A stretch of 42,683 nucleotides of DNA, from positions 16,739 to 59,421 of the forward strand of contig NZ_PKUB01000053.1 of the NCBI RefSeq assembly GCF_002868845.1. The letters run 5' to 3'. The position numbers and the translations under genes are program-made. This document shows, in pieces, positions 3,012 to 14,833 of this stretch. Every line of letters starts with the position of its first letter. The stretch's first letter is position 1. This DNA comes from Desulfuromonas sp. Its GTDB lineage: Bacteria; Desulfobacterota; Desulfuromonadia; Desulfuromonadales; BM501. The notes under the pieces were generated by a model. That model was not told where the DNA came from. It made no database searches and saw only the letters and a list, made by a program, of their open reading frames with translations.

Positions 3012-5432
3012 CTATTTCTCAACATGCCAGACATAGGCGACCTTGGCCTCAAGTTTTCCCTTCGGCACTCCCTTAACCTCATGTTTCACCCGATACTCGT
3101 AGGCACTGAAAAATCCGCCAGCCTTCTCTGATACGTTGACCGTTTCGTTGGCAAAGGGGGTTTCATATTTGACCTTGAGCGGTTTTTTGGACGAGATAAA
3201 CACGGTCACGGGGTTATCGAATGCGTCGTAGTAGTCATTGTCATCATATTCGAGGCTGACCGTAACGCCCTCGATATTTTCTTTGGAAAAGCGGTCGTCC
3301 CGGTCCTGGATGATCTGCGCCCTGCGGCGCTTGAGTTGCGGATGCCACTCTCGGACCAGCTCGGTTTTCAGATAGCCGTCGATCAGGGCGAGGTCGGTAT
3401 TCTCCTCTTCCATGGACCGGACCAGGCCCTCGTAAAACCGCTTCGGGATCACCGTCACCGATACCGGAACGTTCACCAGGTCGGCCGGCTCCTCTTCACC
3501 GAGTTCGAACTGATACTTGTGCTTGTCGCCCGGTGCCAGCACAAAGGACTGGGGGTACGAAGAGGCGCTTTTATTTGTTTTCAATTCCCTGTAATCACCA
3601 CTCTGCTTGCTCCAGGCACCGTAACTGCCGGTGACGTATCTTGAATAGGCTCCCGTCCAGTCGGACTTCATCTGCACGAGGTAATGATTTTTCGACTCGT
3701 TTTTGACTTCGCAGATCGCCTTGTAGCCGTAGACGTCCTCTTCGTGGCCGCCGCTGGAAGACGAATGTTTCTGGTTGGTGCTGTAGTTGATTGCCTCGCC
3801 GTTAATCATCATGTAGTCGTAATTGTGCGTTGTATAAGACGAAGTGGTATAGGGGACGTAACGCTCGCCGATCTTGCCGTGCTTGAAGGCTTGCCGGACG
3901 CGCAGCTGGTATTTTTCAAGGGCGTGTTCTGCATGCCTTTGTTTGAACGAAGGCACATCGACCAATAAATCAATGGGCAGCTCAAGGGCTTGCTTATAAG
4001 CCTCGCCCTCAAAAACGCTGCTCAAAAAGTAGTTTTCAACTTGACTTTTAAACTTTTTTACATCTTTGCCGCTTGGAATCTTTGTGACAGAAACATCACC
4101 ATTACTATGTCCTGAAACTATCTTATCGTCCGTCGTTGCCACAGATAAAACAAAAGAGCAAGGATAGCTAAACAGCAGCTTACCGGTTTTCAAATCCCAG
4201 GTCTTAATTGTTTTATCATTACTGCCTGACACAATGCGACCATCAGAAATCGCTACTGAAGTTACCCTGTTGCTATGGCCGGCTAAAGTATGCAACAATT
4301 TTCCGTCTTGAAGATCCCAAATTTTAATTGTTTGATCTTTACTACCTGATACAATTCGCCCATCAGAGATCGCTACTGAATTCACACCGTCGCCATGACC
4401 AGCCAAAGTATGCAACAGTTTTCCGCTTTGAAGATCCCAAATTTTAATCGTTTTATCATCACTACCTGAAGCGATTCGCCCTTCACCAACAGCCACCGAG
4501 TTGATAAAAATCGCCCCTCCCCACCCATTTGTACCACGATGTCCGGCAAGATCATGTAAAAGCTTGCCACTGTTCAAATCCCAAACCATAACAGTATTTC
4601 GATCACTGTCAGAGACGATTCGACCTTCACCGGTCGCTACCGTTGTCTCATCAGTAAACAGAAGGTGCTTATGCCCAGAAAGGGACTGCAAGAGCTTGCC
4701 ACTCTCTAAATCCCATATTTTGATTTTTTTATCCCAACTACCAGAAACAATTTTTCCGTCAATAATTGCAACAGCGGTAACATCCCTTTCATGCCCAGGC
4801 AGGGTATGCAAGAGCTTGCCACTCGCTAAATCCCAAATTTTAATTGTTTTGTCATCGCTACCTGATACAATCCGTCCTTCAGCGATTGCTACGGAGTTAA
4901 CATGGTCGCTGTGTGCAGAAAAAACATATGGAAAAAACCCATCATAAAGGCTGACACTTTCTATCGCCTCACTTAACTCCTCAAATAATTCATATTTGAA
5001 ATAGTCTTGAACTAGAACATCAAAAGGGGAGATTATTTCATTTCCAAGGGCATAGCTGATCTGCTTCTTCTTTTCCTGCTCTTCCGGAGTCAACCCACGC
5101 GCTTGGCTTTCAGAAGACGCCGGCAGTTCCCACACAGCGACATCCTCTTTTGCTGGAGACGGTGCATTTTCCGTATTTTCATCGGGCCCGCCTTCCATTT
5201 CAGCGTATGTCGGGATGTCGCCGCTTTCATATTCCAGGCAAAACAGGATTGATCCAACAAGGAGCGACGGGAGCAGAAGGCCATACACAATGGTCAACTT
5301 CAGACGGCTGCGGTTTTTCTTTACAAAAAAGAGCAACGCGTTTCTAAGCGCAACCGAAAAAAGCCCGACCAGCCACAATATGCAAACAAGTCCCAGAAGT
5401 GCTGCTAACGACAAAAAAACTACCGAATCCAT
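3012..5432 (-). CDS. Membrane-anchored seven-bladed WD40 protein, tandem paralogue (806 aa)
   Basis: Function unknown. Architecture matches the downstream paralogue: two membrane segments around a KKNRSRLK loop, an acidic linker, a seven-blade WD40 propeller at about residues 172-449, then a conserved C-terminal region ending YVWHVEK. It lacks the terminal NrfJ-like module. Blade length varies: blades 3 and 4 carry insertions (HKHLLFTDETTVATGEG and HRGTNGWGGAIFINSVAVGEG). The first 60 residues and the post-propeller region are nearly identical to the paralogue, while the blades differ clearly and their DNA is visibly more AT-rich (about 4100-5000). Blades within the protein are very alike (for example DLQSGKLLHTLAGHGDGVNS and DLQDGKLLHTLAGHSNRVTS), suggesting recent blade duplication or gene conversion. 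The ATG has an AGGGAGA ribosome site. It is 66 bases downstream of the lipoprotein gene and probably co-transcribed with it. Confidence 0.85.
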   Translation of the reverse strand: MDSVVFLSLAALLGLVCILWLVGLFSVALRNALLFFVKKNRSRLKLTIVYGLLLPSLLVGSILFCLEYESGDIPTYAEMEGGPDENTENAPSPAKEDVAVWELPASSESQARGLTPEEQEKKKQISYALGNEIISPFDVLVQDYFKYELFEELSEAIESVSLYDGFFPYVFSAHSDHVNSVAIAEGRIVSGSDDKTIKIWDLASGKLLHTLPGHERDVTAVAIIDGKIVSGSWDKKIKIWDLESGKLLQSLSGHKHLLFTDETTVATGEGRIVSDSDRNTVMVWDLNSGKLLHDLAGHRGTNGWGGAIFINSVAVGEGRIASGSDDKTIKIWDLQSGKLLHTLAGHGDGVNSVAISDGRIVSGSKDQTIKIWDLQDGKLLHTLAGHSNRVTSVAISDGRIVSGSNDKTIKTWDLKTGKLLFSYPCSFVLSVATTDDKIVSGHSNGDVSVTKIPSGKDVKKFKSQVENYFLSSVFEGEAYKQALELPIDLLVDVPSFKQRHAEHALEKYQLRVRQAFKHGKIGERYVPYTTSSYTTHNYDYMMINGEAINYSTNQKHSSSSGGHEEDVYGYKAICEVKNESKNHYLVQMKSDWTGAYSRYVTGSYGAWSKQSGDYRELKTNKSASSYPQSFVLAPGDKHKYQFELGEEEPADLVNVPVSVTVIPKRFYEGLVRSMEEENTDLALIDGYLKTELVREWHPQLKRRRAQIIQDRDDRFSKENIEGVTVSLEYDDNDYYDAFDNPVTVFISSKKPLKVKYETPFANETVNVSEKAGGFFSAYEYRVKHEVKGVPKGKLEAKVAYVWHVEK

Positions 5433-7020: not shown

Positions 7021-9678
<2,658 letters not shown>

Positions 9679-9741
9679 GGACAAAGCATCATTCCGGCAA
9701 AAATATTGGTTCGACTGAGAGAGGAGCGTTTTCAGCCCCCG

Positions 9742-9775
9742 AAAAAGGAAACGGGGATTGTATCAATCCCCGTTT
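9742..9775 (-). terminator. Rho-independent terminator after the response-regulator gene
   Basis: Perfect 11-base arms 9749-9759 and 9765-9775 (AAACGGGGATT and complement) with a five-base loop. On the minus strand they are followed by CCTTTTT. The site lies 46 bases past the stop of the response regulator and upstream of valS. Confidence 0.75.
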
Positions 9776-9820
9776 CATCCGTCAATAGTGCCAAGCCCCC
9801 CCACGGGGGGGGACCGGTGA

Positions 9821-11599
9821 TTACTCGGCCCCTTCCTTGATCTTGCGAATCTCCTCGTTGATCAGGTTCTCGGCGAGATCGGGGACCACCTCCCAGGCGA
9901 CCTTTTCCAAAATGACGCTGGCCAGCCGCTCGATGACCGAGTTAACGACCTTTTCCACGACCCGGGCAAGATCTTCCTCCGAAAGGGAGCGGGCACGCTC
10001 CTCAACTTCGGCGGCGTCGGCGATGATGGCCGCCCCCGTCAACCCTGCTGCCGCGGCGGCGGCCGCCGGCGCAAGGGAGGGTTCTGTTTCAGGTTCGGAC
10101 TGGGCCCAATCCTCCTCGGCCAAAGCAGGCTCGGCCGACTCCTCGGCATCCAACCCTGCGGCCGCAAGAAGGTCATCCTCCGGCTCGGCGAAGAAGGCCT
10201 CGTCGTCCTGCGCGGATGTCTCGAAGCCGCCGAATCCGCCCTCTTCGAGCGGGGCCTCGACCGTCGCGGCCAGCGATTCAGGCTCCTGCCCGGCGCCAGG
10301 CTCCTCTTCCGCAACAGCTATCTCCAACTCATCGAAACCGGCCGTCGTCGGCCCGAAGGCCTCTTCAGCCTCAAAGGCCTCTTCAGCCTCAAAGGCCTCT
10401 TCAGGCTCAAAGGCCTCTTCGGCGGCGAAGGACTCCGGGGAAAACCCTACCGGCTGAGAAGCGGGCTCGGCAATCACTTCCTCCTCGGGAAGAGCTTCCT
10501 CGAAAGCGGACACCTCAGCGCCCCCGGCCAGGAGGTCCTCCTCGAAAGCGAGGTCCTCTTCCTCGAGGATGTCGCATTCGTCGAGTTCGAGAATCTCCTC
10601 GTCCTCTTCAAGGTCCAGGATCTCTTCATCCTCTTCGAAGGAGACCGCTTCGCCCTCGGGAAAGATCTCTTCCGCGCCCTCGGCAGGAAGGGATTCTCCA
10701 AAAACGTAATCATCGCCGGTGTTCTCGAAACCGGGGGGTTCGTGCGAGGCCTCTTCGGCCCCGAGGAAGGTTTCCTCGACGCCGGACCAGGGCTCCTCGG
10801 CAGGGGCGGCAGACGGCTCCTCAGCGAAATCAGCTTCGAAAAGGAAGTCCTCTTCGGCCCCGGGTCCGGCTTCGGCAGAAAGCTCTTCGCCCGGGGGAAA
10901 TTCTTCTTCCACTGCCCCCCAGATGTCTTCGACAGGGGGCTCCTCAGCGACCGGTTCCTCGGCTTCTTCCTCCAGAGAGACGCCCCCCCAGACATCCTCC
11001 TCGATCCCGAGCGCCGGGGCCTCATCGGCGGGCGCCTCCTCTTCCCACTCGCCGAGGGGAATCTCCTCCTCGGCGGGCGCCTCGACCTGACCTGCGCCTG
11101 CTGCGGCGGCTGCGGCCACGGCCAGAGCCGGTGCCACCTCCGGGGCGGGTTCCACGGCCGGGGCCGAAGCGAGGGGCCTCTCCGCCGCGACCACCGGGGC
11201 AGGGGCGGGCTCGACCAGCGCAGGCTCCGGCGCTTTGGCGAGAAGCTCCTCTACCCGATCGATCAGGGCCTGGGACTCGAAAGGCTTGACTATCCAGCTG
11301 TCGGCGCCGACGTTTCGGGCGCGGTTCTCATCAAAAGGCTCGAAGGTCCCGGTGAGGAGCAGAACGGGCACCGCGGCAAGGGCGGGATCCTGCTTGACAT
11401 CGGAGCAAAGCTCATAACCGTTCTTCCCCGGCATGTGCACGTCCGCCACGATCAGATCGGGATGTTCCAGGCGGGCCTTTTCCAGGGCGGTCGCACCGTT
11501 ATCCACCACTGTCAGATCGTAGTCCTCCTGGGCAAAAGTAATCCCTACGACCTTTTGGATGGTGATACTGTCGTCGGCCAACAGCAGTTTCTTGCTCAT
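9821..11599 (-). CDS. Response-regulator receiver protein with long acidic disordered region and C-terminal helices (592 aa)
   Basis: The N-terminal about 120 residues are a canonical receiver: acidic pair in LLLADDSITIQKVV, phospho-acceptor Asp in PDLIVADVHMPGKNGYELC, Thr in LLLTGTFEPF and Lys in WIVKPFE. No output domain follows. Instead about 400 residues of Glu/Ala/Pro-rich, strongly acidic low-complexity sequence include a short tandem repeat (AFEAEE units). The chain ends in a predicted helical segment of about 55 residues (LARVVEKVVNSVIERLASVI, then VVPDLAENLINEEIRKIKEG). This receiver-acidic linker-helix layout recalls polarity or scaffold proteins such as RomR, and the tail recalls PopZ C-termini; that is analogy, not proven homology. 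Start: ATG 11599 has AAGGAGG five bases upstream; an in-frame extension to 11644 lacks such a site. The partner kinase is not in the window. Confidence 0.85.
   Translation of the reverse strand: MSKKLLLADDSITIQKVVGITFAQEDYDLTVVDNGATALEKARLEHPDLIVADVHMPGKNGYELCSDVKQDPALAAVPVLLLTGTFEPFDENRARNVGADSWIVKPFESQALIDRVEELLAKAPEPALVEPAPAPVVAAERPLASAPAVEPAPEVAPALAVAAAAAAGAGQVEAPAEEEIPLGEWEEEAPADEAPALGIEEDVWGGVSLEEEAEEPVAEEPPVEDIWGAVEEEFPPGEELSAEAGPGAEEDFLFEADFAEEPSAAPAEEPWSGVEETFLGAEEASHEPPGFENTGDDYVFGESLPAEGAEEIFPEGEAVSFEEDEEILDLEEDEEILELDECDILEEEDLAFEEDLLAGGAEVSAFEEALPEEEVIAEPASQPVGFSPESFAAEEAFEPEEAFEAEEAFEAEEAFGPTTAGFDELEIAVAEEEPGAGQEPESLAATVEAPLEEGGFGGFETSAQDDEAFFAEPEDDLLAAAGLDAEESAEPALAEEDWAQSEPETEPSLAPAAAAAAAGLTGAAIIADAAEVEERARSLSEEDLARVVEKVVNSVIERLASVILEKVAWEVVPDLAENLINEEIRKIKEGAE
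10360..10431. repeat. Four-copy 18-bp tandem repeat inside the response-regulator gene
   Basis: The unit cctcttcagcctcaaagg is repeated head to tail at 10360, 10378, 10396 and 10414. The first two copies are identical and the last two increasingly diverged. On the coding strand it encodes repeated AFEAEE/AFEPEE blocks in the acidic region. Copy number could change by slippage without breaking the frame. Confidence 0.85.
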
Positions 11600-14059: not shown

Positions 14060-14833
14060 ATGAAACGAATTCTGATCTGCGACAAGCGAGAGAAACTCCT
14101 CTCCACCCTGGAGGTCATCCTCAAGCATTGGGGATACAGGGCCCTTGCCACCTCCAGACCGGATGAACTCTCGGCCTTTCTTCGGGAGAGCTCCCTTGAC
14201 CTGCTGCTGCTCGGCTCGACCTTTCTGGCCGACGGCAGCCAAGCCCTCCGCGATACGTTGGCCTGCAGGCTCACCGACACGGGCTGTCCCCTCATCGTCC
14301 TGCAGGAGGATTCCACCTGCCCCGAGCTCGAACTGCCCTACGAAACCCTGTCAGTCCCGCTGAATATCTTCGCCCTGTTCGAGTTCACCCAGAAACATCT
14401 GGAAAAAATCCCCCGCCGCAACTTGCGCCTTGAAACCAAGCTGCCCGGAATGCTCTGCCAGGGTGAAACCTCTCACTTGGCGGAAGTGCTGAGCCTCAGC
14501 GCCCACGGCCTGTTTATCAAGACCGCCTCACGCCTCGAGAAAGAGGACCGGTTAAAGGTGACCTTCCCCCTGATCGGAATGAAAAAGGAGCTGGAAATCG
14601 ACGGACGGGAACTGTACCGGGTCCAGCCCGGACCCGAGAACAACTACCTTCAGGGCATCGGCATCGAGTTCAACGAGATGGGCGAGGAGGCCCTCCGGGA
14701 CCTTGAGGCCTTCATCCAAAGCCGTTTCCTGGGGGAAGTCTCGGAAAGCCCCAGGGGTCACCAGGGGCTGGATCAGGGCCAGATCCACGGGGAAGTCAGC
14801 AAGGCTTCCCTGCGCCTGGTCTGGGAGAAGTAG
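14060..14833 (+). CDS. Pseudoreceiver-PilZ domain protein
   Basis: 257-residue cytoplasmic protein. The N-terminal 115 residues have a receiver-like fold pattern (MKRILICDKREKLLSTLEVI, then LDLLLLGSTFLADGSQAL), but the phospho-acceptor Asp position reads Gly-Ser, so it is unlikely to be phosphorylated. Residues about 119-230 form a PilZ domain: RRNLR fits the RxxxR c-di-GMP motif, and SLSAHGLFI fits (D/N)xSxxG except that the first residue is Ser. The family binds c-di-GMP and controls motility, polysaccharide or gene expression; binding here is likely but uncertain given the altered second motif. The plus-strand gene converges on deoB with only 22 bases between stops. A decayed EAL gene at 28.6 kb is another trace of c-di-GMP signalling. 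Confidence 0.8.
   Translation: MKRILICDKREKLLSTLEVILKHWGYRALATSRPDELSAFLRESSLDLLLLGSTFLADGSQALRDTLACRLTDTGCPLIVLQEDSTCPELELPYETLSVPLNIFALFEFTQKHLEKIPRRNLRLETKLPGMLCQGETSHLAEVLSLSAHGLFIKTASRLEKEDRLKVTFPLIGMKKELEIDGRELYRVQPGPENNYLQGIGIEFNEMGEEALRDLEAFIQSRFLGEVSESPRGHQGLDQGQIHGEVSKASLRLVWEK

Follow-up and report, generated by a model that had tools for sequence, protein, structure and literature searches.

RomR was described in 2012 as a response regulator composed of a receiver, an unstructured linker that varies among lineages, and a C-terminal domain, RomR-C, that is alpha-helical, with many conserved Glu residues and an invariant Trp and Pro (PMC3441718). According to the available text of that source, RomR-C is not homologous to characterized domains, Geobacter and Pelobacter are among the RomR carriers, and RomR almost always co-occurs with MglA and MglB. 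In Myxococcus xanthus, D53 is the phosphorylation site of RomR, and the D53E and D53N substitutions alter reversals (PMC3441718). The M. xanthus RomR-C is both necessary and sufficient for the formation of dimers and trimers; polar localization depends on it, and it also binds MglC (PMC10329633). How it finds the pole and oligomerizes is stated there to be unknown. Within the open-licence literature, PMC3441718 was the sole source found to treat Geobacter RomR with type IV pili and polarity. In PopZ of Caulobacter, the conserved C-terminal domain is PF10691, or DUF2497 (PMC5182065). Condensation of PopZ is driven by the helices of this domain, fluidity is tuned by its acidic linker, whose charge is -0.28 per residue (PMC9512792), and a model with a trimer and a hexamer has been presented (PMC9926476).

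Our window, the whole stretch of Desulfuromonas sp. DNA that was analyzed (42,683 nucleotides), includes a minus-strand ORF of 592 aa at 9821-11599, with its ATG at 11599 and its stop codon at 9821-9823. Pfam detects a single domain in the protein, Response_reg, at residues 6-116 (E 3.8e-21), and by this match and residue positions the receiver occupies residues 1-122 (11234-11599, minus strand). The phosphorylation residues are present, namely the acidic pair D9/D10, the phospho-acceptor D53 (11441-11443), T83, and K105; position 83, usually Thr or Ser in receivers, is variable among homologues. The receiver is followed by about 400 Glu/Ala/Pro-rich residues and then a conserved helical end. 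A sequence-only reading of this gene had proposed the same layout, with an intact receiver and no DNA-binding or enzymatic output, and the Pfam result and receiver residues agree with it on each of these points.

The linker comprises residues 123-528 (406 residues; 10016-11233, minus strand), as delimited by composition: 26% Glu, 21% Ala, 10% Pro, and 5% Asp, with Lys absent and a single Arg. Its net charge is -126, or -0.31 per residue, which is nearly the charge density of PopZ (-0.28; PMC9512792). In the 41 homologues with a placeable start (out of 54), linkers range from 138 to 526 residues with a median of 29% acidic residues. The tail had been called giant; its approximately 400 acidic residues are real, but such a size is ordinary for the family. 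The linker pLDDT is mostly <50 in a full-length single-sequence fold, which is uninformative on disorder because the same model also gives the receiver a pLDDT <50. The acidic spacer is probably disordered, and its composition and length variation fit a lineage-variable linker of the RomR type. Two motifs recur in the homologous linkers. The motif D/E-I-W-G-x-V-S-x-E-E (residues 200-212; 10964-11002, minus strand) is found as D/E-I-W in 29 of 41 homologous linkers, versus a mean of 9.5 and a maximum of 16 of 41 over 100 shuffles of these linkers. The motif E-E-I-L-x-L-D-x-x-D-I-L-E-E-E-D-L (residues 322-357; 10529-10636, minus strand) is found as E-I-L-x-L-D-x-x-D-I-L in 31 of 41, versus a mean of 0.11 and a maximum of 1 of 41 in the same control. 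The linker also includes short in-frame repeats of 18-nt units encoding EEAFxP/A (10355-10420, minus strand).

The RomR-C-type helical domain covers residues 529-592 (9824-10015, minus strand), based on conservation across the order and on invariant residues. Of the 58 genomes of the order, 56, the protein's own among them, have a counterpart of the last 92 residues; each has one copy, and G011 alone has an additional, weak match (E 0.0062). We gathered 54 C-terminal sequences and aligned 38 as A1, in which W38, P42, E46, and E52 are invariant across all rows; W569, P573, E577, and E583 are likewise invariant in a 13-row alignment, A3. The end is therefore conserved in fact as well as in appearance, as had been surmised. 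Single-sequence AlphaFold2 of the last 92 residues predicts helices at 510-536, 541-570, and 572-591 (mean pLDDT 72.9), with a break between the invariant Trp569 and Pro573. Helix 541-570 (9890-9979, minus strand) ends just past Trp569, and helix 572-591 (9827-9886, minus strand), which begins at Pro573, is by profile comparison the predicted counterpart of the last PopZ helix. In the full-length single-sequence model, the helix from 541 continues unbroken to 591, and receiver and linker are without confidence.

Within the phylum, the A1 profile has matches in 146 of 395 genomes, and in other families of the class RomR-C is shorter, as part of the first helix is missing (model positions ~18-58 versus 1-58). 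Pfam and NCBIfam scans of the C-terminus returned sub-threshold matches only, so no unrelated known output domain was found there. Among solved structures no relative of the end was found (no match better than E 0.17), and an A1 scan of viral contigs returned no relative. A scan of genome contigs with the full protein found the receiver match only, because its patterns derived from the receiver and linker and not from the end. Two RomR-like proteins (L151, L153) have extra helical stretches in the linker that weakly match the RomR-C model several times, and short ORFs of ~80-230 aa in the phylum also match RomR-C (e.g., in G485, G662, and G733).

We assigned the protein to RomR by described features, in the wording of PMC3441718, and not by alignment or a tree with named RomR proteins; on that basis, membership is supported. 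The N-terminal receiver has a phosphorylatable D53 (Response_reg E 3.8e-21), the extreme C-terminus is alpha-helical and Glu-rich with an invariant Trp and Pro, and MglA and MglB are encoded in the same genome. The MglB and MglA genes are adjacent. Among PDB chains of the respective name, the best match of MglA is 5ymx_A (342 bits, whole length) and that of MglB is 6h5b_B (210 bits). RomR proteins are further marked by polar localization, MglC binding, and GEF activity with RomX, and the genome has an MglC homologue in a second Roadblock protein, which matches 7ct3 with 84 bits over residues 2-116 of 119. It has Y-D-x-I in place of F25-D26-x-I28, which binds MglB, and keeps two of the three RomR-contact residues K104, R106, and R110 (roles as given in PMC10329633); R110 is replaced by Ser, with an Arg adjacent. 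The genome also encodes four PilT-family ATPases above the family cut-off. By eye, the MglC homologue at L228 (G000:C13:122692-122919) is beside a TPR-repeat-like protein and aroQ- and pepP-like genes. Altogether, the domain order, Asp53, the Trp/Pro/Glu signature, and the presence of MglA, MglB, and MglC bear out the suggested likeness to RomR, and the 592-aa protein is very probably a RomR-family response regulator, with an oligomerizing RomR-C at the pole and a role in MglC/MglB/MglA polarity.

The wider co-occurrence points the same way to differing degrees. Where RomR-C is matched at E <= 1e-9 (42 genomes), 41 genomes encode a Roadblock protein, versus 126 of 353 others, a comparison that is uncorrected for phylogeny and uses a threshold picked with the list in view. 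Across all 146 RomR-C genomes the co-occurrence is weaker (81 of 146 versus 86 of 249).

Downstream of the gene is a conserved neighbor, valS (7021-9684, minus strand; Pfam tRNA-synt_1 and Val_tRNA-synt_C). For loci L010-L039, valS adjoins the gene in 29 of 30; for loci L130-L159 the figure is 26 of 30, with 17 of 21 outside the order. It was also seen in 11 of 25 further order loci, where flanks were taken short or one-sided. An intrinsic-terminator-like hairpin lies between the gene and valS (9748-9776, minus strand; 13-pair stem and T-run), and terminator-like matches across the region as a whole show no excess over shuffles. Elsewhere in the window, 258-2939 and 3012-5432 (minus strand) encode two large neighboring proteins that contain WD40 beta-propeller repeats, and 14060-14833 (plus strand), a few kilobases from the receiver gene, encodes a PilZ-domain protein with possible c-di-GMP binding.

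The resemblance to PopZ noted earlier had been one of layout, and here the profile comparisons go further in supporting a common C-terminal domain. For PopZ we used 45 C-terminal (DUF2497) sequences found in the phylum to which G058 belongs; as a positive control, the PF10691 search had a match in Caulobacter. Direct comparison of the RomR-C and PopZ profiles gave P 9.9e-5, probability 58, and a score of 24.5, and a second comparison gave 8.4e-5 and probability 60. The top score among 600 column permutations (300 keeping heptad position) was 18.6, and reversed profiles scored 11.4 and 16.4. The window protein alone scores 8.2 bits against DUF2497, below the Pfam cut-off of 27, and no DUF2497 match was found in its whole genome. 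The 592-aa protein was thus rejected as PopZ itself: it is below that cut-off, and its N-terminus is a receiver in place of the client-binding helix, with no client-binding helix motif. Single A1 members match DUF2497 in 14 of 38 cases, below cut-off (best E 0.015), though no other family is matched as often; the runner-up has 7. Single-sequence Pfam scans hinted at the first RomR-C helix as the PopZ match, and the window protein's weak DUF2497 match falls on that helix, out of register. This candidate was set aside because the profile comparisons point to the last helix, as do the bridge proteins; both kinds of match could be accounted for if RomR-C contained an internal repeat.

The bridge proteins were found with A1, which consists of RomR-C rows alone. 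In part of the 299 genomes searched, from the phylum of G058, A1 finds short proteins of ~110-150 aa (best E 2.9e-10), and several of these loci are matched by both A1 and PF10691 (e.g., G111:C29, 1.6e-6 and 6.5e-5, respectively; G088:C147, 5.8e-4 and 7.1e-7). Profile comparison gives P 1.3e-14 (probability 98) for RomR-C to bridge and P 9.7e-11 (probability 97) for bridge to PopZ, and these alignments and the direct RomR-C/PopZ alignment all end in the same register. The PopZ-type N-terminal motif PSMEEILASLEDLL occurs in 15 of 25 bridge loci examined, versus 2 of 2760 ORFs of other loci, so some bridge members are PopZ-like proteins with a RomR-C-like end. We then combined 33 RomR-C rows and 15 bridge rows, with none from the 45 PopZ loci, into a joint profile (A2) and searched the 299 genomes, of which 66 bear PopZ (PF10691 E <= 1e-15). 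Among the matches listed in these PopZ-bearing genomes (to E 0.035), A2 fell on the PopZ locus in 40 of 40; A1 alone fell on PopZ in 5 of 29 of those listed, weakly (E 0.29-0.65). Single A2 members match DUF2497 weakly in 25 of 48 cases (best E 0.00039; the next family has 4). When 4921 ORFs were searched iteratively, starting from RomR-C, the number of PopZ loci found at E <= 1e-3 was 0 at first, then 3, 35, and 45 of 45, with 1, 0, 0, 0, and 0 reversed decoys at that level over five rounds.

Thus the direct comparison alone is moderate, and it is through the bridging proteins that the C-terminal oligomerization domain is related to the PopZ helices, though the window protein itself is below the DUF2497 cut-off. 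From these profile comparisons, we consider with good confidence that RomR-C is homologous to the PopZ oligomerization domain. The broader reading, that the two form one family and that RomR is a PopZ-type condensate scaffold with a receiver replacing the client-binding helix, appears likely, if somewhat less so. What is new is the link between the RomR-C and PopZ domains; the protein itself belongs to a known RomR kind. We found no statement of RomR/PopZ homology in the open-licence literature, including the available text of PMC3441718, PMC11025332, and PMC10547168, and one may be printed elsewhere. PopZ/RomR-C-like domains also appear in other settings: five proteins (L167, L169, L182-L184) have an N-terminal part that is CheX/CheC-like by eye and the domain at the end, and most of a set of short proteins of ~100-170 aa (L160-L166, L168, L170-L172, L175-L179, L189) have two such units in tandem.

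The similarity to PopZ might instead represent convergence of short amphipathic Glu/Lys/Arg-rich helices without common descent. The common stretch is indeed short, amphipathic, and charged, its invariant Trp is offset by two residues from the PopZ Trp, and the direct comparison reaches only P 8.4e-5 to 9.9e-5 (probability 58-60), with single RomR-C sequences below the DUF2497 cut-off (14 of 38, best E 0.015). The out-of-register first-helix match of the window protein, the 2 of 5 direct A1 matches on PopZ loci that sit on the first-helix part of the model, and the one reversed decoy that passed E 1e-3 in round one of the iterated search can be read the same way. Against convergence, RomR-C and PopZ each match the bridge proteins, and do so in one register (P 1.3e-14 and 9.7e-11); 15 of 25 bridge loci examined, versus 2 of 2760 background ORFs, bear the PopZ-type N-terminal motif; the A2 profile falls on PopZ in 40 of 40 matches listed in PopZ-bearing genomes; and 0 of 600 column permutations exceeded 18.6 versus the 24.5 seen. 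We therefore regard convergence as unlikely and favor common descent of the two domains.

Two further alternatives concern the function of the protein. A polar scaffold of the RomR/PopZ type could serve a task other than MglA (e.g., chromosome or chemosensory placement) and have the architecture alone in common with M. xanthus RomR. Such a role would suit the RomR-C matches in genomes that lack Roadblock proteins (65 of 146, many weak), the occurrence of the C-terminal domain in several other architectures, and the description of RomR as a broad hub with many partners in Bdellovibrio (PMC11025332). Set against this are the Roadblock protein in 41 of 42 strong-match genomes and the MglA, MglB, and MglC of the protein's own genome, which make a role apart from MglA improbable. 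That the protein is an ordinary soluble single-receiver protein with low-complexity filler as its acidic tail is scarcely credible: the linkers do vary greatly in length (138-526 residues) and sequence, but the conservation of two linker motifs and the terminal helices beyond shuffles or chance already contradicts it. A RomR-family protein acting in MglA polarity remains our preferred reading.

As a RomR-family protein, it may operate as follows. RomR-C would self-associate and gather the protein at the cell pole, and the long acidic linker would hold chains apart and bear short docking motifs. RomR-C would recruit MglC, MglC would then recruit MglB, and RomR would promote MglA-GTP at the pole, with phosphorylation of D53 changing polarity. 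In such an assembly, RomR-C would act as the sticker and the linker as a spacer that bears docking motifs, while the receiver would serve as the switch. We infer self-association, polar localization, MglC binding, phospho-control, and condensate formation for the 592-aa protein, which by analogy with M. xanthus RomR may be a phosphorylation-controlled polar organizer.

If the domain link holds, knowledge of PopZ could be brought to bear on how RomR-C finds the pole and oligomerizes, including the tuning effects of linker charge and length, the models with trimers and hexamers, and transplantation in the manner of PopTag. A two-component signal would then sit directly on a polar condensate, and the polar hubs of Myxococcus/Bdellovibrio and Caulobacter, which have been studied apart, would share an assembly module. 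There is also a practical aspect. RomR has been studied with the POLAR assay (PMC11025332), in which baits are fused to the H3H4 helices of PopZ; if RomR itself has a distant version of this module, as it may, such experiments would need a control for cross-assembly.

Compared with described RomR proteins (M. xanthus MXAN_4461, Bdellovibrio Bd2761, and Geobacter/Pelobacter homologues), the Desulfuromonas protein has in common the receiver D53, a linker that is probably lineage-specific, a helical end rich in Glu in which a Trp and a Pro are invariant, and occurrence with MglA/MglB/MglC, and it adds a case of RomR with all three in one genome. It is longer than M. xanthus RomR (592 versus 420 aa), its linker is Glu-rich with two conserved motifs whereas the M. 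xanthus linker is described as rich in Pro (PMC3441718), and its first RomR-C helix is longer than in other families of the class. With Caulobacter PopZ (PF10691) it shares, by profile comparison, a related C-terminal helical oligomerization domain and a similar linker charge (-0.31 versus -0.28 per residue; PMC9512792), and a trimer has been proposed for PopZ (PMC9926476) and seen for RomR (PMC10329633). It differs in having a receiver where PopZ has an N-terminal client-binding helix, a much longer linker, and a Trp placed two residues closer to the Pro at the beginning of the last helix. FrzS/AglZ-type proteins, which act in polarity control, combine a receiver with a coiled coil, in that the receiver is carried on an extended tail that binds partners. 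The 592-aa protein is like them in carrying a receiver on an extended tail; its tail, however, is acidic with few order-promoting residues, and no long coiled coil was seen in it.
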